A stretch of 64,000 bases of DNA from Methanoculleus taiwanensis (GTDB lineage Archaea > Halobacteriota > Methanomicrobia > Methanomicrobiales > Methanoculleaceae): positions 1 through 64,000 of the forward strand of contig NZ_LHQS01000003.1 of NCBI RefSeq assembly GCF_004102725.1, read 5' to 3'. Numbering within the stretch: position 1 is the first letter of the stretch; the number at the start of each line of letters is the position of its first letter. This document shows positions 28,162 to 57,158 of the stretch, in pieces. Made by a program: the position numbers and the translations under genes. The notes beneath the pieces are model-generated. The model saw only the letters and a list, made by a program, of their open reading frames with translations, made no database searches and was not told where the DNA came from.

Positions 28162-29484
28162 ATGATGTCTCCTGGCCAGAATCGTCAAACAGATGCACCT
28201 GCTTCGGCGTATCCATATGTTCTCCTGATCACCGCCGCCCTTGCTATAGTAACTACAATTTTCTGCCTTCAAGCAGGAATCACGAACGTTTTCCCCCACC
28301 TCTACTACCTTCCGATAGTGCTTGCTGCCTACTGGTATCCCCGTCGCGGGGTATCTTTTGCTCTCGTGATGGCAGTCACATACTGTGCACTTGTTCTGTT
28401 CCTCGGCTATACCGACATTGCTTCGCTTATCACTGCCGTCATCCGTGCCGCTGTATTCATCGGCATTGCCGCAGTTGTCGCATACCTTGCAGGACGGCTC
28501 CAGAATGATATGAAAGAATACCGTGCACTCTTCGAGTCTACCGGTACGGCCATGCTGCTCGTCGGGCGTGACGGTATCGTCGCTCGTATCAACGGCGAAC
28601 TCGTGCGTATGCTGGGATACTCCCGGGATGCAACAGCCGGCACTATCCGGTGGGAAGAACTCGTTGCACCCGATGGGCGGGAAGCGGTCGGTGCACTGCT
28701 TGCAACCCGGGATCAGCAAAGCGGCACTGCACCTTCTTCCTTCGAAATGCGGGCTCTTAAGAAGGATGGCACCATCTTCGACGCGATGATGACCGTTGCG
28801 CCGGCACCGACCATGGGAGGCTACATCATCTCGTTGGTGGATATCTCGGAGCGAAAACAAGCAGAAGTAGCGCTAAAAGCATCAGAAACACGGCTCCGAA
28901 CGACTCTGGACAGTCTGCAGGCAGGTGTCGTAATCATTGAGGAGGAGACGCACAGGATAACGGACGTGAATCCGGCAGCCGAAAAGATGATCGGCGCTGC
29001 CCGGGAAGAGATCATCGGTCACGTCTGCCACCGGTTCATCTGTCCTGCAGAAGAAGGCTCGTGCCCCATCACCAATCTCGGACAGCGCGTGGATTGTTCC
29101 GAACGGGTTGTCGTAAATCTGCAGGGCGAAAAGATCCCTGTCATCAAGACCGTAGCGCAGATGACCATTGATGGACGTGCATATCTCGTCGAGAATTTTG
29201 TCGACATCCGTGACCGAAAAGAGGCGGAACAAGCCCTCCTTGCCTATGTAACCGAAGCGGCACTCCGTTTAAAGCAGCCAGTCGAACTGATCCGCGATAA
29301 CCTTGCAGACATTCTCCAGCAGGTGCATGACGGTGAAACCGCTCGTGAGATTGTAGAGACAGAGATCAAGGTTCAGATCATGAATGCCGACCGGATCGTT
29401 GACAACCTCCGTGATCTCGACTGTGCTATCGCGCAGGAGCGGAAGGAGATCCCCGAAGCATTCAGAGCATTCCTGTCCAGGTGA
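28162..29484 (+). CDS. Membrane-bound tandem PAS sensor without kinase domain
   Basis: A 440-residue protein. Residues ~14-110 form about four membrane helices (LLITAALAIVTTIFCLQAG onward), followed by PAS1 (about 115-235, ending with a SERKQAE linker) and PAS2 (about 240-355). PAS2 carries a cysteine set C-x4-C-x6-C-x10-C within residues ~290-315. The last ~85 residues are helical and resemble a histidine-kinase dimerisation helix (ALRLKQPVELIRDNL) but with Gln/Pro where the phospho-His would be, and there is no ATPase domain. Output probably passes to the KaiC-like protein encoded six nt downstream. Confidence 0.82.
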   Translation: MMSPGQNRQTDAPASAYPYVLLITAALAIVTTIFCLQAGITNVFPHLYYLPIVLAAYWYPRRGVSFALVMAVTYCALVLFLGYTDIASLITAVIRAAVFIGIAAVVAYLAGRLQNDMKEYRALFESTGTAMLLVGRDGIVARINGELVRMLGYSRDATAGTIRWEELVAPDGREAVGALLATRDQQSGTAPSSFEMRALKKDGTIFDAMMTVAPAPTMGGYIISLVDISERKQAEVALKASETRLRTTLDSLQAGVVIIEEETHRITDVNPAAEKMIGAAREEIIGHVCHRFICPAEEGSCPITNLGQRVDCSERVVVNLQGEKIPVIKTVAQMTIDGRAYLVENFVDIRDRKEAEQALLAYVTEAALRLKQPVELIRDNLADILQQVHDGETAREIVETEIKVQIMNADRIVDNLRDLDCAIAQERKEIPEAFRAFLSR

Positions 29485-45190: not shown

Positions 45191-46429
45191 ATGGGAGATA
45201 TTGCTCGGCAAGCACCAGACAAGGATACCGGTGAAGATCTTTACCAGTACCTTCTTGAACGGATAACCAACCTCGAAAACCGAAATCTGGAGCTGCGGGA
45301 GCAGTTCCGGCAGATGGAGTCCGAAAAACGCTATATCGAAACCCAGAAGATCCGGTACGAGCGGGAGCTCCGGAAGCTCAAGAGCGAGATCGAGCAGCTG
45401 CGGAGCCCTCCCCTCGTCATCGGAACGGTCACCGATGTCGTAGACAACAACAGGGTCATTGTACGAAGCAGCGCTGGCCCGCGATTCCTCGTCCGCACAT
45501 CGCAGCTCATCGATCCCGATCTCCTCAAGCCGGGTGTGCGGTGTACCTTAAACCAGCAGTCCCTCGCCATCGTCGACGTCCTCCCCACGAGCTACGACTC
45601 GCAGGTCTACGGCATGGAACTCGTAGAGTCCCCTGACGAGCGTTACGAGAGTATCGGCGGCCTGGAACCGCAAATTGTAGAGATCCAGGAAGCAGTCGAG
45701 CTCCCGCTCACAAAACCCCATCTCTTCGAGCAGATCGGCATCGCACCGCCGAAGGGCGTCCTCCTCTACGGCCCTCCCGGAACCGGGAAGACACTGCTCG
45801 CGCGGGCGGTCGCGCATCAGACAAACGCGCACTTCCTCCGTGTCGTCGGTTCGGAGCTCGTCCAGAAGTACATCGGCGAAGGGGCGCGGCTCGTGCGCGA
45901 GCTCTTCGAACTCGCCAAGCAGAAAGCGCCGTCGATCATCTTCATCGACGAGATCGATGCGATCGGTGCGCACCGGAACGACTCGACGACCTCAGGAGAC
46001 CGCGAGGTGCAGCGGACGCTCATGCAGCTCCTCGCCGAGATGGACGGGTTCGAGAACCGCGGCGACGTCAAGATCATCGGCGCCACGAACCGGATCGATA
46101 TCCTGGATCGCGCCCTCCTCCGGCCGGGCCGGTTCGACCGGATCATCGAGATTCCACTCCCCGACTTCCACGGACGGCTGTCGATCATGCATATCCACAC
46201 GAAGGGCATGAACCTCGGCGAGAACGTCGACCTTGCGGAGGTCGCCCGTCTCACCGAAGGAAAGAACGGTGCCGACCTCCGGGCGGTCTGCATGGAGGCG
46301 GGTATGTTCGCGATCCGGAGCGAGCATGAAACCGTCACGCAGGACGACTTCATGAAGGCGATCGACAAGCTCTCCCTGGACTTCGACAAGCATCACATCA
46401 ACACCTCGTACGGTGCGATGTTTGCCTGA
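45191..46429 (+). CDS. pan: Proteasome-activating nucleotidase, PAN1
   Basis: A 412-residue AAA+ ATPase that unfolds substrates for the 20S proteasome. An N-terminal coiled coil (~15-70), an OB domain (~75-135) and the AAA domain follow in order. Walker A is [13 protein letters not shown], Walker [12 protein letters not shown], and the arginine finger region is [11 protein letters not shown]. The C-terminus ends MFA, only a variant of the HbYX gate-opening motif. GAGGAG lies five nt before the ATG. A T-rich stretch just after the stop may end transcription. A second, canonical PAN is encoded 0.7 kb away. Confidence 0.95.
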
Positions 46430-47128: not shown

Positions 47129-48307
47129 TCAGATGTACATCCGGGTATCCTGGGCCTGGGCCTTGTGCTCCTCGCGTTTTACTTTCTTGATCGCAGCGGT
47201 GAAATCATCCTGCTCCACCGCTTCCGCGTCGCGGCGGACCGCTATCATACCGGCTTCGCGGGCGACTGCCTGCAGTTCCGCACCGGTGGTCTTCTCGGTC
47301 TGGCTGACGATCGCTTCGAGGTCTACATCCTTCATCGTCATCTTCGCCGTGTGGATCTTCAGGATCTCGCGCCGGGAGTCCGCATCGGGAAGAGGCACCT
47401 GTATGATCCGGTCGAACCGGCCCGGCCGGAGGAGGGCGGGGTCGAGCATATCGATCCGGTTGGTTGCAGCCATGATCCGCACGTTTCCACGGTTGCCGAA
47501 CCCGTCCATCTCGGCAAGGAGCTGCATGAGCGTCCGCTGCACCTCTGCGCTTCCACTCGTTCCATCGTGCATCCGCATGCTACCGATCGCATCGATCTCG
47601 TCGATGAAGACGATCGATGGTGCACGCTCCCGTGCAAGGATGAAGAGCTCGCGCACGAGCTGTGCTCCTTCACCGATGTACTTATGCACGAGCTCGCTCC
47701 CGGACATCCTGATGAACCGGGCATTCGAGTTGTGGGCGACCGCCTTTGCGATCAGGGTCTTCCCGGTTCCGGGCGGGCCGTAGAGGAGGATGCCCTTCGG
47801 AGGCTCGACGCCGATCCGCTCGTAGATCTCGGGTTTGGTCAGCGGGTACTCGACCGCCTCGCGAACCTCTTCTATCTCTTCCTTGAGGCCGCCGACCTGC
47901 TCGAACGTGACGTCCGGCTGCTCTTCGAGTTCCATGACGCGGATCCGGGAGTCGAAGACGTTCCCGATGATCTTGACGATGGAGAGCGTGTTATTGACGG
48001 CAACCTTCGTGCCCGGTTTGAGGGTGCGGTGCAGTTTTTCGTTCACCGACGTGACGTATTCCTGATTGTTGCCCTGCTGCCGGAGATATACTTCACCTTT
48101 GTCCAGTACATCGACCACAACGGCAACAAACAGCGGCACACGTTTCAACTGGCCGTTCTCTTTCCGGAGCTGGACGAGTTCCTTCTCGGCCAGCTCGTTC
48201 TTGAGTTTGAAATCCAGGAGCTGCGCCTTCAGATCCTGAATCTGGAGTGCGAGCATGTCGTGCTCACTGCCAGGGTTGTTGCCAATGGTTTCGTCCATGG
48301 TACTCAT
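47129..48307 (-). CDS. pan: Proteasome-activating nucleotidase, PAN2
   Basis: A 392-residue PAN with an N-terminal coiled coil (~17-55), OB domain (~58-120) and AAA+ ATPase (Walker [14 protein letters not shown], Walker [23 protein letters not shown]). It ends MYI, a canonical HbYX motif that docks into the 20S alpha ring. GGAGAAA nine nt upstream supports the ATG at 48307. The coiled coil is shorter than in PAN1 and the sequence is clearly diverged. The DUF5804-like gene follows after one base. Confidence 0.95.
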   Translation of the reverse strand: MSTMDETIGNNPGSEHDMLALQIQDLKAQLLDFKLKNELAEKELVQLRKENGQLKRVPLFVAVVVDVLDKGEVYLRQQGNNQEYVTSVNEKLHRTLKPGTKVAVNNTLSIVKIIGNVFDSRIRVMELEEQPDVTFEQVGGLKEEIEEVREAVEYPLTKPEIYERIGVEPPKGILLYGPPGTGKTLIAKAVAHNSNARFIRMSGSELVHKYIGEGAQLVRELFILARERAPSIVFIDEIDAIGSMRMHDGTSGSAEVQRTLMQLLAEMDGFGNRGNVRIMAATNRIDMLDPALLRPGRFDRIIQVPLPDADSRREILKIHTAKMTMKDVDLEAIVSQTEKTTGAELQAVAREAGMIAVRRDAEAVEQDDFTAAIKKVKREEHKAQAQDTRMYI

Positions 48308-48800: not shown

Positions 48801-49289
48801 ATGAATACGTACCGGCCGAAGACTGCCGAGACCTACTACGACGTCCTCGGCATCAGCCGTGAAGCGAACGCGGATGAAATCAAAGCCGCATACCGGAGCC
48901 TCGCCAAACAGTATCACCCCGATATCAGCACCGCCCCGGGCGCCCAGGAGAGATTCCTGAAGGTTCAGGAGGCATATGACACCCTCTCCGATCCCGAGAA
49001 GCGAGCCGAGTATGACAGGCTCCTTGCGGCCGGTACTGCCTATTCCCCATACCGCACTCCGGGCGGGGGTGCGTCCGCCGCATACCGGCAGGCGAAATCC
49101 CGGACTTATTACTATCACTACTCTCCGAACGAAGGCTTTTCATCATCAGAAAGACCCGGAGAGGCCACTCCCATAAGCCGATCCTCTCTCGCGCTGATCC
49201 TGCTCAGCGGCATCCTGATGATCGTCGTGCTCGTGTTCCGGGTGCTGCTCGGAATCCTCTTTGCCGGAAATAGGAAAAACGAGCGGTGA
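48801..49289 (+). CDS. J-domain protein with C-terminal membrane anchor
   Basis: A 162-residue protein. Residues ~12-75 are a J domain with the HPD motif (KQYHPDIST), which would stimulate an Hsp70 ATPase. A Tyr/Ser-rich linker follows (about 80-125), then one hydrophobic helix ([20 protein letters not shown]) near the end, so the J domain is tethered at the cytoplasmic membrane face. It lacks the zinc-finger and C-terminal domains of DnaJ proper. Its stop is two nt from the stop of the convergent Usp-GNAT gene. Confidence 0.9.
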
Positions 49290-49291
49290 CG

Positions 49292-50581
49292 TTACGGCAT
49301 CCGCTTCATCGGACTGACGTTCGAGCCCTCCATGTTGCCGCCCGCAAAGGCGTACCGCTCCCGGATTGTGGGCGGCAGCTCCCGCTCGCTGATGAGCGCA
49401 AAGCCGAAGGATGCGTAGAACGAGACGAGATCGTTTGTCGAATGCATGTACAATACGTCGTTCCCACAGGCGGAGACGAGCGCTTCAACGGCCTTCTTCG
49501 CGTATCCCCGTCCCCTGAACTCTTCGGGAGTGAAGACACCGTCGACCTCCCTCCCGTCCGGATGCCGCCGGCACCGGGCGAGGCTGACGAGGTTGCCGTC
49601 AAGGAAAACGCCGAAGATCCGGTCGGTCTCCTTATTCGCCTTCTGTTGGTGATACCCCTTCCAGATCGCCTCTGCCTTCGGAAACTCCTCCGGTGCAAGT
49701 TCACGGGCTTCCACAGCGAGTGACAGAACGGGGTATTTTACAAGAACCGGACGACGGGCTCGTTTTGCCACGTCGGCTACCGTAGTTCCGAGAGGAATAT
49801 CTCTGAAGTAGTCCTGCTCGCCGTACCGGGAGATGAGGATCAGAGAGGCATCCTCTTCCTCGGCGAGATCGGTGATCTCCTGGCTCGGGTTTCCGAACCG
49901 CACGATCGTCCTGACGGAGAGTCCTTCGCGCGCAAGTTCCGCCGCAAGCCCGGAGAGCTTTCTCTCCGCCTCCTCGATCCCCGCGACCAGTTCCTCTTTT
50001 GTCTCTGCGCTCCTGATGACATGAACAAGGATAAGTTCCGGGATATCCTCTATTCGTCCGACAAAATCGATCACCATCCGGGAAGGCCTCGAGAAATCGA
50101 CCGGACAGAGCACCCGTGAGAAGATATTCGTCCGGCACGCCTCCGGAGCCGCGTCCCGGTAGCGGGTGATCAGGATATCGACGGTGCTTCGGCGAAGGAC
50201 GTCGGATGAGACGCTCCCAAGGAAGTATCCCTGGATGATCCCCTTACCCCGTGCACCGATAACAATCAGCGGAATCTGTTCGCCGGCAGCACGTGAGACA
50301 ACTGCTCCGGCGATGTCACCGTCCCGGACGATATCGAGGATAACTATCGGCTCAAGGCCGAGCTCCTCCACCCGTTCGCTCTGTATCGCCAGTCGGCGCT
50401 CTGCATGCTCCGCAGGCGTCTCGAACGTCTGACCGGAGAGCCATGTCCGCATCGACGCACTCTCCGCATCAAGGGCATGGAGCAGCATCACTTCCCTGAC
50501 TCCGGGGATCTGTCCAAGGCACTCTACAGTTCTCATCGAGTACTCGGAGAAATCGGTCGGTACCAATACCCTCTCAAACAT
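49292..50581 (-). CDS. Tandem universal stress protein domains fused to GNAT acetyltransferase
   Basis: A 429-residue fusion. Usp1 (about 1-145) keeps the nucleotide motif G-x2-G-x9-G-S (GARGKGIIQGYFLGSVS). Usp2 (about 150-280) has a weaker version, RYGEQDYFRDIPLGTTVADV. A GNAT domain (about 290-429) follows, with the acetyl-CoA loop FRGRGYAKKAVEALV. This suggests an acetyltransferase under nucleotide control, perhaps for protein lysines, comparable in principle to cyclic-nucleotide-controlled GNATs in mycobacteria. A TATATTTTAA element near 50622-50633 is the likely TATA box. Confidence 0.88.
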   Translation of the reverse strand: MFERVLVPTDFSEYSMRTVECLGQIPGVREVMLLHALDAESASMRTWLSGQTFETPAEHAERRLAIQSERVEELGLEPIVILDIVRDGDIAGAVVSRAAGEQIPLIVIGARGKGIIQGYFLGSVSSDVLRRSTVDILITRYRDAAPEACRTNIFSRVLCPVDFSRPSRMVIDFVGRIEDIPELILVHVIRSAETKEELVAGIEEAERKLSGLAAELAREGLSVRTIVRFGNPSQEITDLAEEEDASLILISRYGEQDYFRDIPLGTTVADVAKRARRPVLVKYPVLSLAVEARELAPEEFPKAEAIWKGYHQQKANKETDRIFGVFLDGNLVSLARCRRHPDGREVDGVFTPEEFRGRGYAKKAVEALVSACGNDVLYMHSTNDLVSFYASFGFALISERELPPTIRERYAFAGGNMEGSNVSPMKRMP

Positions 50582-50874
50582 GATGATCTCCGCACCGGAT
50601 ATCTGTTCATAGGGCGGTTGCTCATTAAAATATACCCATTTCGACCGCCCCGAAGGACGCCCATCCGCGACCGGGGGCAGACCAGCCCACCGCTTCAGCT
50701 TCCGCCCTAAAATGCCTTAGATCGACCCTTAAGCGCATTATAACCGGCAACTTCACTGGAGAGCAATAACTACTTAATGCTCAATAACGATAGTATAAAG
50801 AATACGTTGATGTGTATATCCGGTTTTTTTTGCGGACGGGCGGGTGATTCCGCCAGATAAACAGAGCGTGACAG

Positions 50875-53202
50875 ATGGTTTTTTTTGGAAATAGGCCTGG
50901 AGCAACGATAACGGTATCAGTGCTGCTGGTGGATGACGACCCTTCCCTGCTCGAAGCTACCCGCATCTTCCTTGAGAGGAAAGAAGGTTTCTCCGTCAGA
51001 TGCGCACTCTCGGCACGAGAAGCGCTCGAGGCTGCCAGGAAGACCCGCTTCGACGTCATCGTCTCCGGTTACGATATGCCGGAGCAAACCGGAATAGAAC
51101 TGCTTCAGGAACTTCGGACGCGAGGGGACGAGACCCCGTTCATCGTATTCACCGGCAAGGGCAGAGAGCACGTCGCAATCGAAGCCCTCAACAGCGGAGC
51201 AGACTTTTATCTTCAGAAGGACGCCGACGTTCCGGCCGTCTTCGCCGAACTCGAGCAGATGCTCCAGAAGGCGGCCCAGCGCGGCTGGACCGAGGCTGCC
51301 CTCAAAGCGAGCGAGGAGCGCTACCGTGCCGTCGTCGAGAGCCAGACGGAACTTATCAGCCGGTTCAGCCCCGACTGGATCATCCTCTTCGTTAACGAGG
51401 CCTACTGCAGATACTTCGGAAAACAAGGTACTGAGATTATCGGGCACCGGTTCAGGCCGGCGATCCCGAGGGAAGAGCAGGCGCTTGTCCGGGATCACTT
51501 CGCCTCGCTCACCCCCGACAATCCCGTCGCCTCCCTCGAACACCGTATAATCATGCCGGATGGAGAGATCCGCTGGCAGCAGTGGAGTGATCGGGCAATC
51601 TTCGACTCTCACGACCGGCTTCTCGAGTACCAATCGGTCGGCCGCGACGTGACGGAACGAAAAATCGCAGAGGAGGCACTTCGGCAGTCCGAGGCGCGCC
51701 TCTCAAAGATCATCAACCATCTGCCGGAACCGACATTTGCTATCGACAAAAACGCACGGGTCATCGCCTGGAACAGGGCACTTGAGGACCTGACCGGCGT
51801 AGCTGCCGGCGAGATGGTCGGTGCAGGCGGGTACGGGTATGCAGTTCCCTTTTATGGGGAGAAGCAGCCGGCACTGGCCGATTATATCCTCAGGCCCGAT
51901 GCGGCGGCCCTGCAGCGGTACACGTTGATCACGGAGAAAGAGGACGAACTGGCTGCGGAAGTGACATTCCCGCTCCCGCAGTGGAACGGACGTATCTTCT
52001 GGATCAAAGCGACACCTCTCTACGACAACAACGGCTCGGTCGTCGGTGCTATCCAGTCAGTCCGCGATGTTACCGAGATGAAGCGGGCAGAGGCCGAGAG
52101 AGACCGGTTACTTGACGAGATTGAAAGGCGAAAACGCCTCCTCGATACGATCTTCGACGTGACGCCCGTCCAGTTTTACGTTTACGACAGGGATCTGCGG
52201 TACCTCTACGTCTGCTCGAAAGGCGCTGAAGAGCGGAACGTAAAACCGGAAGAGATGATCAGAAAGACCTGGCGTGATCTCGGCATGCCGATAGGGATCA
52301 TGGAACCGATCGAACGGCAGCTCCGGATTGTACTCTCGACCGGCTCTCACCTGCAGGGAGAGTATACCTATCCGACCGCGAGCGGCGACAAGGAGTACCT
52401 GTACGAGCTGACACCGATCTACGGCAGCGACGGGGGGGTCGAAGCGGTGGTCTCGACGGTGATCGATATCACCGAGAGAAAGAAGGCAGAAGAGGCGGTC
52501 ATGCAGACCAACCGGAAGTTAAACCTCCTCAACAGCGTCACGCGGCACGACGTCCACAATCAGCTCACCATCCTGATCGGTTACCTGCACCTCTCATGCG
52601 AGCATACCGACGATCCGCTTCTGCAGGAGTTCATCGGCAAGATGCAGGGGGCGGCAAAGACAATTCACCGCCAGATTGCCTTCACCACCGATTATCAGGA
52701 TATCGGTGTCCAGTTCCCTGCCTGGCAGAACCTCCCCGACGCCGTCGCCCGTGCAACGGCCTCGCTTGATACGGGAGCGGTCACGATATTCGTAAACGTA
52801 CGCGGCATCGAGATCTTTGCCGATCCGCTCCTTGAGAAAGTATTCTACAACCTTCTCGACAACGCCACCAGGCACGGCGGCCCTATCACCCGGATCCGCA
52901 TATACGACAGGATAACCGATTCCGGGCTGAAGATCATATGCGAGGACGACGGAAGCGGGGTGCCTGCGCATAAGAAAGAACAGATCTTCAAGCGGGGTTT
53001 TGGGAATAATACCGGGTACGGCTTATTTCTGGCGCGGGAAATCCTCTCCATCACTCATCTTTCGATCGAAGAGACCGGCACGCCCGGGATCGGTGCACGC
53101 TTCGAGATCTCTGTCCCGAATGGTTCGTATCGCTCAACCAGCTCGGGCGACGCCTGCATACCGGCACGTCTGCCGGAGCACGACCCCGCCGGGTCTCACT
53201 GA
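50875..53202 (+). CDS. Hybrid sensor histidine kinase: receiver, three PAS, kinase
   Basis: A 775-residue soluble protein. A receiver-like domain (~14-125) has the acidic pocket VDDDPS and Lys95, but the phospho-acceptor position is Gly65 (IVSGYDMP) instead of Asp. Three PAS domains follow (about 145-265, 270-405, 420-540). The H-box is [10 protein letters not shown] with His558; the ATPase has N-box [17 protein letters not shown] and [13 protein letters not shown]. No membrane helix is seen. A TATA-like AGTATAAAG near 50791-50799 would give a ~55-nt leader. No cognate regulator is adjacent. Confidence 0.9.
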
Positions 53203-53309
53203 TACCCACCCTCCCCGACAGCGCTCTTCTGCCGTGCCGGAACAGGACAGGGCCAAGGGTTATGGTATGCGAGTGCATGTATGCCGTGATCCCACGCGAA
53301 GGTGACACG

Positions 53310-53696
53310 ATGGAGAAAGTGAAACGGTATCGGTGCAGGATATGCAACTACATCTACTCCCCCGTCCGGGGCGAGCCGCACCGGGGTGTACCCGCCGGCA
53401 CGGCGTTCGAAGATCTGCCTGACGATTACATCTGCCCGGTCTGCGGGGCGACGGGTAAAGGCCCCGTCGGAAAATGGGGTTTTGTTCCCTGGGAACCGAC
53501 GAAGTACATCTGTAAGATCTGCGGGTATATCTACGATCAGAAACGAGGTGAGCCCCGCCGGGGCTTTCCGGAAGGCACGGCGTTTGAAGATCTTCCGGAG
53601 GATTACACCTGCCCGATCTGCGGTATGGATCCGAGAATATCCGAGTTCTACGGGCCGGTCGGCAAGGCGCAGTTCGACCCGATCCTCGACGTATAA
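53310..53696 (+). CDS. Double rubredoxin
   Basis: A 128-residue protein with two complete rubredoxin domains. Domain 1 has CRICNYIY and CPVCGATG; domain 2 has CKICGYIY and CPICGMDP. The eight cysteines should bind two mononuclear iron centres for low-potential electron transfer, in methanogens often to oxygen- or superoxide-detoxifying enzymes. The start at 53310 was chosen for AAGGTGA four to five nt upstream; a longer frame has no such signal. The two domains are similar enough to suggest duplication. Confidence 0.93.
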
Positions 53697-53957: not shown

Positions 53958-56900
53958 ATGGATATATTCGGCAATATTCTGGGGCAGGGAAAGAATCCAA
54001 ATCCATGGATCAATAAAGGGAACACTCAGGCGGAAGCGGGCAACTATCTCGAAGCAGCCAAGAGTTATGAGAAAGCCTTAAAGATCGATTCTGAAAACGC
54101 ACCCGTCTGGTACTCGCTCGGAACGGTGCTCTCCTGCCTCGGGAGGTACGAAGAAGCGGCCGAGTGCCTCAGGAGAGCCGCAGAGAAGAACCCGGAGGAT
54201 CTCGGGACGCTGCGCACGCTCGGCCACGTCCTCGCGAGGCTCGGCATCTACCAGGAGGCCGCAGACTGTTTCGGCACCGTCGCCCTGCGCGAACCCGCCG
54301 ACACCGCGGCATGGTATGAGCGCGGGGAGATGCTTGAACGGCTCGCCCGGTACCGGGAAGCAAGAGAGGCTTTTGAACGGGTGCTCGACAGCCACCCCGA
54401 GAACACTGTCGCACGCCGTCGGCTTGCCCTGCTGCTCGACCGGCTCGGGGAGTACGGTTCTGCGGCGGAGGAGTACGACCGGCTCGTGAAAGCCGATCCG
54501 GACGATATCGATGCGCTCGCGAGACAGGGCGCCGCGCTCGAGCGGTCGGGCGATCATACCGGCGCGGTTGCCTGCTTTGACCGCGTGCTTGAGAAAAAAC
54601 CGGAGGATACGGATACCCTGTACCTGAAGGCCCGTGCATACGAAGGTGCCGGCCGATTCCGCGAGGCTGCCGGCTGTTACGGTGCGATCACGACTCTCCG
54701 CCCCGAAGACGTGCCCGCCTGGTACCAGCGGGGGATCAACCTTACGAGGGATGGCGACTACCGCGAGGCGGCCGCCTGCTTCGACAAGGTCGCCCTGCAC
54801 GACCCCGACCAGGTCCTGGTTCGCTATACGATGGGGCTTGTCTATGACACCCTCGGCCAGTACGACCGCGCTGTCAAGGCATTCGATCAGGTTCTGAAAC
54901 ACGACCAGACGAAATTCCACGTATGGTACAACCGCGGCATCTCGCTCTTCAGGCTCGGCCACTACGCCGAGGCGGTGCGGTCGTTCGACCGGGTGATGGA
55001 GAAGAAACGGGACGGCGGGGTAAGATGGAGCGGAACCGGCAGCGACCTGAGCCTCTTTGACCGCGATGAGGCCGTCGCGTCACAGAAGAGACCCGCGAGC
55101 TACGATGCACGGGACCGGGTCATGCTGTACCATCGCGGCGTGGCACTCCTGCATCTCGGCCGCTACGAGGAGGCAGAGGAGAGTTTTGCCCGCCTGCTTG
55201 AGATCGAACCCGAAAACATCCGTGTACTGGTGAACAGCGGTGTTGCACACCTCCACCTCGGGCGCTACGAGGCGGCGGATGAGTGTTTCAGGGCCGCCCT
55301 TGCAGGCGAGCCGCATAACGCCGTTGCCATGGCGATGCGGGCGGATGCGCTCATGAACCTCGGCAGATACGAGGAGGCTCTCGAGTGCCTCGATCATGTC
55401 CTGAAAGAGGACGGCGAGAGCGTGATGGCGCTTCAGGAGCGCGGAACGGCACTGATGCACCGTTCCAGATACCACGAGGCCGTCGAGACCTTCAATGCGC
55501 TTCTCCGCATCAATCCGGGCGACGGTGCAGTGCTGAAGAGCAAAGGAAAGGCTCTCCTCCAGCTCGGACGGTATCCGGATGCACTCCTCTGCTTCGAGCA
55601 GGTTCTGGAAAAGAGTCCCGACGATCTCGGAAGTCTCCTCGAGATGGGAACGGCGCTCGAGAGGCTCGGCAGATATGAGGATGCTCTCTCCTGCATCGAC
55701 CGGGTGCTGCAGGTAGATACCGACGATACCGGGACGCTCCTCCGGAAAGCAAGAATCTGCGAAGAGCAGGGACGGCTTTCGGGTGCGTGCGACTGCTACC
55801 GACGCCTCTCCGAAGAGTCCCCGTCGGATTCGGGGTACCTGCTGAACCTGGGGATGGTACTTGCAACGCTCGGGCGATTTACCGAAGCATCGGACTGCTT
55901 TACGCAGGTCACAAAAGCCGAACCGGACAACCTCTTCGCCCTGCTCCACCGCGGATTCGTGCTGCTGCACCTCGGGGAGTACGCAGAAGCGGCAGAATCG
56001 TTCGAGCGGATTGTGCAGGAGAACCCGGGCGACGCCGGTGCAACCTTCGCCCTCGCGACGGCGCTTCACCGGCTCGGCATGGATCAACGCGCCATCGAGT
56101 GCTGCGACCGGGTGCTCGCCGCCGATCCGGCGAACGCAGCAGCGTTGAAGATACGTGCCGGCTCGCTCGAACAGCTCGGGAGGCACGAGGAGGCGGCAGC
56201 CGGATTCGAGCAGTACCTTGCCGCGACACCGGGCGACCTGCGTGCCCGGATGGCGTACGGCATGGCGCTCGAGAAGGCCGGGAAATACAGCGACGCCATC
56301 AAGAGTTACGCACAGGTGCTCCAGGAAGACGATACGAACAATGAAGCCTGGCATATGCTGGCGAACGCGCTCGTCCACATGGGACGCTACGAGGATGCAC
56401 TCGAGTGTTCGGACAGCATTCTCGAGATCAACGCCGAAGACCGGTCTGCATGGCAGCAGCGGGGCGAGATATACTCCTGGCTCGGCAGGTACGGTGACGC
56501 GGAGCAGTGCTACGAGAAGGTGCTCGCCGCCGATCCCGGGGACCTGGCCTCGCGCCGCGGCCTTGCCGATGCGCTCGAAAAAGCGGGGAAGTACAGAGAG
56601 GCGCTGGCCGAGTATACGGCAATCCTCGACCAGGAACCGACGAATATCGATATGCTCTACGCTAAGAGCACGGCACTCATCCGCCTCGGTCAGTATGCCG
56701 ACGCAATAAAGCCGGTCGACAAGATCGTCGTGCTCCAGCCCGAGAGTGCGGCGGCGCTCTTCATGCGGGGGACGGTCCTTGAGAAGATAGGCAGGTTCGA
56801 CGATGCCCTGAAGAGTTACGAGACCGCGCTCCAGGTCGATCCGGGGAACGCCGTTATCTGGAACGCAAAAGGTATGCTCCTCGATACCTTCGGGAGGTAC

Positions 56901-57158
56901 GCCGATGCAGTGGCGGCATTCGACCGTGCGGCGGCTCTCTGCAGCGACGACGTCAGCATTCTCTTCAATAAAGCGATCGCCCTTGCGCACCTCGGCGAGA
57001 ACGACGCCGCACTCGGCTGTCTCGACCGGGTGATCGCGGCAAATCCGAATCATGCACAGGCGCTGTACCGCAAAGGCAGGGTCCTCGATCGTCTCGGCAA
57101 GTATCGCGAGGCGGCGGACTGTTTCAGTCGTGCCGTCGAGATGAATGGTTATCAGTAG
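53958..57158 (+). CDS. Giant TPR repeat protein
   Basis: A 1066-residue protein made almost wholly of 34-residue tetratricopeptide repeats, about 30 in number (recurring G-x-YxEAxxxYxxAL and LGRYEEA patterns). A non-repeat linker of about 30 residues (near 345-380; KKRDGGVRWSGTGSD) splits the array into an N-terminal block of about ten and a C-terminal block of about 20. There is no signal peptide or membrane helix, so it is a cytosolic scaffold for protein contacts. A CAAATATAAG box lies about 35 nt upstream. An FKBP lipoprotein gene follows after 13 nt. Confidence 0.9.
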   Translation: MDIFGNILGQGKNPNPWINKGNTQAEAGNYLEAAKSYEKALKIDSENAPVWYSLGTVLSCLGRYEEAAECLRRAAEKNPEDLGTLRTLGHVLARLGIYQEAADCFGTVALREPADTAAWYERGEMLERLARYREAREAFERVLDSHPENTVARRRLALLLDRLGEYGSAAEEYDRLVKADPDDIDALARQGAALERSGDHTGAVACFDRVLEKKPEDTDTLYLKARAYEGAGRFREAAGCYGAITTLRPEDVPAWYQRGINLTRDGDYREAAACFDKVALHDPDQVLVRYTMGLVYDTLGQYDRAVKAFDQVLKHDQTKFHVWYNRGISLFRLGHYAEAVRSFDRVMEKKRDGGVRWSGTGSDLSLFDRDEAVASQKRPASYDARDRVMLYHRGVALLHLGRYEEAEESFARLLEIEPENIRVLVNSGVAHLHLGRYEAADECFRAALAGEPHNAVAMAMRADALMNLGRYEEALECLDHVLKEDGESVMALQERGTALMHRSRYHEAVETFNALLRINPGDGAVLKSKGKALLQLGRYPDALLCFEQVLEKSPDDLGSLLEMGTALERLGRYEDALSCIDRVLQVDTDDTGTLLRKARICEEQGRLSGACDCYRRLSEESPSDSGYLLNLGMVLATLGRFTEASDCFTQVTKAEPDNLFALLHRGFVLLHLGEYAEAAESFERIVQENPGDAGATFALATALHRLGMDQRAIECCDRVLAADPANAAALKIRAGSLEQLGRHEEAAAGFEQYLAATPGDLRARMAYGMALEKAGKYSDAIKSYAQVLQEDDTNNEAWHMLANALVHMGRYEDALECSDSILEINAEDRSAWQQRGEIYSWLGRYGDAEQCYEKVLAADPGDLASRRGLADALEKAGKYREALAEYTAILDQEPTNIDMLYAKSTALIRLGQYADAIKPVDKIVVLQPESAAALFMRGTVLEKIGRFDDALKSYETALQVDPGNAVIWNAKGMLLDTFGRYADAVAAFDRAAALCSDDVSILFNKAIALAHLGENDAALGCLDRVIAANPNHAQALYRKGRVLDRLGKYREAADCFSRAVEMNGYQ

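Follow-up and report, generated by a model that had tools for sequence, protein, structure and literature searches.

A tandem Usp–GNAT fusion in a Methanomicrobiales-specific family of putative sensor-linked acetyltransferases

The stretch of DNA analysed here (64,000 nucleotides; the window) carries on its reverse strand, at 49292..50581, an open reading frame that begins with ATG and encodes 429 amino acids followed by a stop codon. A GGAG resembling a ribosome-binding site (Shine–Dalgarno-like; 50588..50591, reverse strand) lies 6 nt 5′ of the ATG, and a scan for bacterial sigma-70 promoters gave no match, the bacterial consensus being uninformative for an archaeal host. Judged against curated Pfam cut-offs, the protein contains two stretches of PF00582 (E 2.7e-37, 128.9 bits against a cut-off of 24), each of which exceeds the cut-off by itself, and one match to PF00583 (E 2.9e-9, 37.6 bits against 20.7). 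On the reverse strand, the first Usp domain (Usp1; amino acids 1–140, 50162..50581; E 1.3e-19 with the stretch run alone) is followed by a second (Usp2; approximately amino acids 155–281, 49739..50119; E 8e-17 run alone) and then by a GNAT domain (amino acids 287–429, 49295..49723), which also belongs to an order-specific subfamily alignment (A1) and is modelled by AlphaFold2 with a pLDDT of 89.4. The AlphaFold2 model of the whole protein, computed with 46 aligned homologues as input, likewise consists of two Usp domains and a GNAT (pLDDT 87.7, pTM 0.80), with low confidence in loop 113–119 at the ATP site of Usp1. Foldseek searches with this model returned tandem Usps first (3loq, Rv2623, UspE and TTHA0350), with the C-terminal part matching generic GNATs. 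Because full-length homologues of approximately 40–71% identity, among them a 71% identical orthologue in Methanoculleus sp. FWC-SCC1, occur across the order and the AlphaFold2 and Foldseek results agree, the Usp–Usp–GNAT arrangement is not a product of chance. The exact reading frame, the Pfam domains, the model and the homologues across the order thus bear out the fusion that the original prediction had read from the letters.

Diverging from this gene, a histidine kinase of receiver–PAS–PAS–PAS architecture by Pfam (50875..53202, forward strand), with an intact H-box (TRHDVHNQL), starts 293 bp away on the opposite strand, and the same arrangement is found in the closest relative (L041/L065). 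Kinase matches in the window's genome number in the dozens, at 53 matched stretches, so this adjacency alone could be chance. On the other side, a short DnaJ-domain protein with a C-terminal hydrophobic segment (48801–49289, forward strand) converges with the Usp–Usp–GNAT gene at a distance of 2 bp. Farther out lie two proteasome-activating-nucleotidase-like AAA ATPases with OB, AAA and lid regions (45191–46429, forward strand; 47129–48307, reverse strand), a pair of paralogues in one methanogen that are less than 2 kb apart on opposite strands and flank a DUF5804 gene. The kinase is followed by a tandem rubredoxin (53262–53696, forward strand; 144 amino acids, two rubredoxin domains) and by a 1,066-amino-acid protein consisting almost entirely of TPR repeats (53958–57158, forward strand), which is kept beside this region in close relatives. 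Across genera, no conserved partner was found beside the Usp–Usp–GNAT gene beyond histidine kinases and the kinase-like protein HKm described below.

Usp1 carries an ATP-type motif, GARGKGIIQGYFLGS, at amino acids 109–123 (50213..50257, reverse strand), which fits G-2X-G-9X-G(S/T), and D10 is the aspartate of its TDFS loop (loop 1). At the motif position of Usp2 (SRYGEQDYFRDIPLGT, amino acids 251–266; 49784..49831, reverse strand) the first glycine is lost and the pattern does not fit, in agreement with the earlier claim of an intact ATP-type motif in the first domain and a degenerate one in the second. The Usp2 motif is non-canonical in 46/46 full-length family members, which instead share a signature of their own, R-x-G-x-x-D; R252, G254 and G265 are invariant and D257 is present in 43 of the 46. 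Because this signature is kept in the family, Usp2 is best described as a constrained domain rather than a decaying one. The Usp1 motif is intact in 30 of the 46 members, including the window's, and broken in 16, with D10 and G122 conserved in all 46, G109 in 45, G112 in 35 and S123 in 33; S12, too, is invariant across the 46 proteins. Nucleotide binding by Usp1 is therefore not universal and is dispensable in some lineages. For the window protein itself, we infer from sequence that Usp1 would bind ATP. D15 and G117 of Rv2623 are needed for that protein to bind ATP and restrain growth (PMC2682197), and by our own matching they would correspond to D10 and G109 of the window protein. Rv2623 has the ATP motif in both domains (PMC2682197), whereas the family described here has it in Usp1 only and never in Usp2. 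The matched tandem Usps (Archaeoglobus 3loq, Rv2623, TTHA0350 and UspE) likewise have two Usp domains per chain but lack a GNAT.

The GNAT module contains an acetyl-CoA P-loop, RGRGYA (amino acids 356–361; 49499..49516, reverse strand), of the form R/Q-x-x-G-x-G/A, which is canonical in 43 of the 46 full-length proteins, with R356 and G359 present in all 46 and A361 in 43. A candidate general base, E345 (49547..49549, reverse strand), lies on the strand before the P-loop and is a glutamate in 45/46; it sits 11 residues before the P-loop, which we take to equal the spacing of E173 in GCN5. W307, R336 and D347 are invariant along with R356 and G359. Since the P-loop and E345/D347 are near-invariant, catalysis is probably retained and the GNAT of the family is probably an active enzyme, with acetyl-CoA as its presumed donor. 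Two cysteines of this domain, C337 and C372, are also near-invariant (45/46 each), as is H340 to a lesser degree (42/46), and could form a metal or redox site.

The original prediction had proposed a survey of Usp–GNAT architectures. Over 232 Methanomicrobiales species, the protein finds matches at E ≤ 1e-10 in 182 of the 232 genomes, approximately 100 of them full length, and the same GNAT also occurs with HKm and without Usp. A profile of the GNAT domain alone (A1, 27 rows), run on archaea with one genome per species, gave hits at E ≤ 1e-15 in 66 of the 393 genomes sampled from the phylum, every one of the 66 belonging to Methanomicrobiales. It found none in 58 genomes of another class, and with thresholds relaxed the matches in 88 genomes outside Methanomicrobiales were all partial and of the generic GNAT kind (best E 3.6e-7). 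Within the sampled phylum, the GNAT subfamily thus looks specific to the order Methanomicrobiales. Besides the fusion, the window's genome encodes another GNAT of this family that stands alone (G000 C1:880595-881017; L136:3599-4006, reverse strand) and is convergent with a large PAS histidine kinase.

Proteins of approximately 610–650 amino acids that lack Usp carry the same GNAT module, approximately 56–66% identical to the window's. Their N-terminal 450 amino acids, here called HKm, comprise three to four transmembrane helices predicted from hydropathy, a PAS domain, an H-box region and HATPase_c (PF02518, E 1.2e-19 and 1.3e-17; N and G boxes kept). These HKm–GNAT fusions (L105–L109, L111–L114 and L150–L155) occur in genera other than Methanoculleus. 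L110, considered as a separate GNAT gene, proved to be an HKm–GNAT copy whose frame is apparently interrupted by a stop; it is HKm-linked and was not counted as an intact fusion. A separate HKm gene, approximately 31–41% identical to fused HKm over nearly its whole length, lies directly upstream of Usp–Usp–GNAT at every Methanoculleus locus examined with enough flank; the same holds for G011 (L104) and for five species belonging to one additional genus (L116–L120). Adjacency was scored by tblastn, and the GNAT lies directly downstream of HKm at L082, L083, L101–L104 and L116–L120; the HKm stop (TGA) and the Usp–Usp–GNAT start (ATG) fall within approximately 10–20 nt or overlap as ATGA. Three apparently huge multi-domain proteins (L059, L060 and L061) were rejected as such, because their N-terminal parts come from reading the HKm gene, which lies upstream and overlaps, out of frame. 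HKm also precedes a Usp-less GNAT at L137, L140, L143 and L146, and at L147–L149 a GNAT whose N-terminal 200 amino acids no longer match Usp. Several families have a three-gene run of HK1 (a receiver–HATPase kinase with an intact H-box), HKm and GNAT (L137, L140, L143 and L146–L150).

Of 31 GNAT-linked HKm copies, 25 have D, N, S, R, Q or T in place of the phospho-acceptor histidine of the TRHD-type H-box, and six keep it. Among 35 unlinked kinases, most of which come from three genomes, 34 retain the histidine, as do all seven alignable HK1 proteins; the difference between GNAT-linked HKm and unlinked kinases gives a Fisher p of approximately 2e-11, ignoring shared ancestry. Judging from these residues, HKm probably does not work as a conventional kinase. 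RdmS, a methanogen kinase without an H-box, binds and hydrolyses ATP with no autophosphorylation (PMC11784639), which provides a precedent for a sensor that binds ATP but does not carry out phosphotransfer. HKm resembles the MA_type 2 histidine kinases of Methanosarcina (RdmS and MsmS) in having a HATPase without a usable H-box, but those have no link to a GNAT and are reported to be without the whole H-box region, whereas HKm keeps the region and usually loses only the histidine.

No clear HKm was found in the window's genome, which contains partial matches and one weak full-length match. The kinase at 50875–53202 was considered as HKm and rejected, having a canonical H-box and no HKm membrane domain. 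Elsewhere in the window, the N-terminal membrane and PAS region of the protein at 28162–29484 (forward strand) resembles HKm (34% over 225 amino acids); its HATPase is seemingly absent, and it may couple this membrane sensor to a different output. In a tree of 83 GNAT modules, all HKm-linked ones fall into one clade of 41 rows (support 82/95) that includes five Usp–Usp–GNATs without an adjoining HKm, and the window's GNAT lies outside it, beside its family relatives. Because the window gene is outside the HKm clade and its genome has no clear HKm, HKm bears on it through GNAT homology only. Outside the clade, 25 of 30 members have an intact Usp1 motif, the window's included, versus 5 of 16 inside (p 8e-4, ignoring shared ancestry); the Methanoculleus motif reads GVRD...GN and is broken. 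One reading, which we infer from these patterns, is that HKm took over ATP sensing, after which the Usp1 site would have decayed, Usp would have been lost and HKm–GNAT fusions would have arisen. The order of these events is uncertain because the GNAT tree has few columns and unsettled bootstraps.

In bacterial type III GNATs, an N-terminal ligand domain switches the enzyme (PMC8556138); cAMP-GNAT (MsPat/Rv0998), NADP+-GNAT (MxPat) and ACT-GNAT (AAPatA) all have an N-terminal small-molecule domain and a C-terminal GNAT (PMC8556138, PMC6434083). The original prediction had likened the fusion to such enzymes in design, not in parts, and this stands: 286 amino acids of Usp–Usp precede the GNAT, Pfam finds only Usp there, and the likeness is one of layout alone. 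Unlike type III GNATs, the archaeal family uses tandem Usp or HKm as its sensor and has no CRP-like, Rossmann NADP or ACT domain. Closer in lineage, haloarchaea, another class, have usp genes linked to GNAT genes (hvo_1820/pat2 and Nmag_1302-1303; PMC12607858, PMC3403918), but as separate genes rather than as the fusion seen in the window. Regulation of Pat2 by the neighbouring Usp has been named an open question there (PMC12607858, PMC3403918). We found no description of a Usp–GNAT or histidine-kinase–GNAT fusion in archaea in the open-licence full-text literature, and the main text of a 2018 census of archaeal two-component systems makes no mention of GNAT (PMC5847659). The ligand-domain GNAT design is known; the family's parts and its link to HKm appear to be new.

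These observations suggest a soluble GNAT acyltransferase under sensor control, with nucleotide at Usp1 or docking of a partner as the input, a description of the window protein that we consider evenly poised. The two Usp domains would form an intramolecular pseudo-dimer in which Usp1 provides an ATP-type pocket and Usp2 a structural, non-binding half; the access to or activity of the GNAT would then change when Usp1 is filled with ATP or a different adenine nucleotide, or when a partner docks on the Usp pair. Such allosteric control by Usp is a putative feature, with a precedent in the archaeal Usp SaUspA, which binds ATP and stimulates PP2A, raising the Vmax of the phosphatase; ATP strengthens the contact between the two while leaving the stimulation itself unchanged (PMC7693658). 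The family as a whole would be of a plug-in kind, one Methanomicrobiales-specific GNAT output driven by ATP-binding sensors in the form of a tandem Usp (as in the window), a tandem Usp with the membrane PAS–HATPase pseudokinase HKm in the same operon, or a fused HKm with Usp lost. Repeated pairing of the GNAT with an ATP-binding sensor supports sensor control in general, at the level of sequence. The broken site in 16 of the 46 members and the absence of Usp from HKm–GNAT fusions argue against Usp1-bound ATP as a simple switch, and the GNAT probably takes its input from 'a sensor', which is not in every case ATP held by Usp.

The same observations bear on a reading in which the Usp pair is a scaffold for dimerisation or partner docking, ATP is a cofactor with a structural role and none in signalling, and the GNAT is constitutively active, with any regulation lying in localisation or expression. 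The Usp domains may indeed be no more than a scaffold: in many Usps the bound ATP serves stability, the D8A variant of SaUspA could not be expressed (PMC7693658), the fold is kept where the Usp1 motif is lost, and HKm–GNAT fusions and standalone GNATs do without Usp. However, where Usp has been lost, a different ATP-binding sensor often stands in its place, and outside the HKm clade the Usp1 pocket shows good conservation; we consider a pure scaffold less likely than sensor control. Far less probable is that the GNAT acetylates its own Usp domains, even though MsPat acetylates a USP in trans (PMC8556138) and a haloarchaeal usp/GNAT pair has been suggested to work in this way (PMC3403918). The best lysine column in Usp1 or Usp2 reaches only 39% across the 46 members, and this absence of a conserved lysine led us to reject auto-acetylation; the same GNAT, moreover, occurs without any Usp in HKm fusions.

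Compatible with sensor control is a small-molecule substrate (an amino acid, a polyamine or the like) with Usp as a stress-linked regulator, which we regard as possible but somewhat short of an even bet. When the GNAT is searched by itself, the top fold match comes from N-acetylglutamate synthase, an enzyme that likewise joins a kinase fold to a GNAT; it is the GNAT half that matches (2r8v; TM 0.73 on the query). By sequence, the matches are generic GNATs, ElaA and XCC2953 among them. The protein acetyltransferases Naa50, GCN5 and RimI match the fold almost as well, however, and no biosynthetic neighbour is conserved. With fold matches of both kinds, protein and small-molecule substrates are both possible.

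Archaeal GNATs are usually described as single-domain enzymes whose regulation is unknown (PMC12607858), and the natural fusions and operons of this family make that regulation directly testable. The family also offers a plausible job for histidine-kinase-like proteins of methanogens that lack a phospho-acceptor, whose output is an open question (PMC11784639). More tentatively, it may be a one-component archaeal family in which an order-specific acetyltransferase is switched either by HKm, no longer phosphorylating, or by a tandem Usp loaded with ATP. If so, a two-component-like system would have acetylation instead of phosphotransfer as its output, with the Usp–Usp–GNAT of the window as its soluble form.
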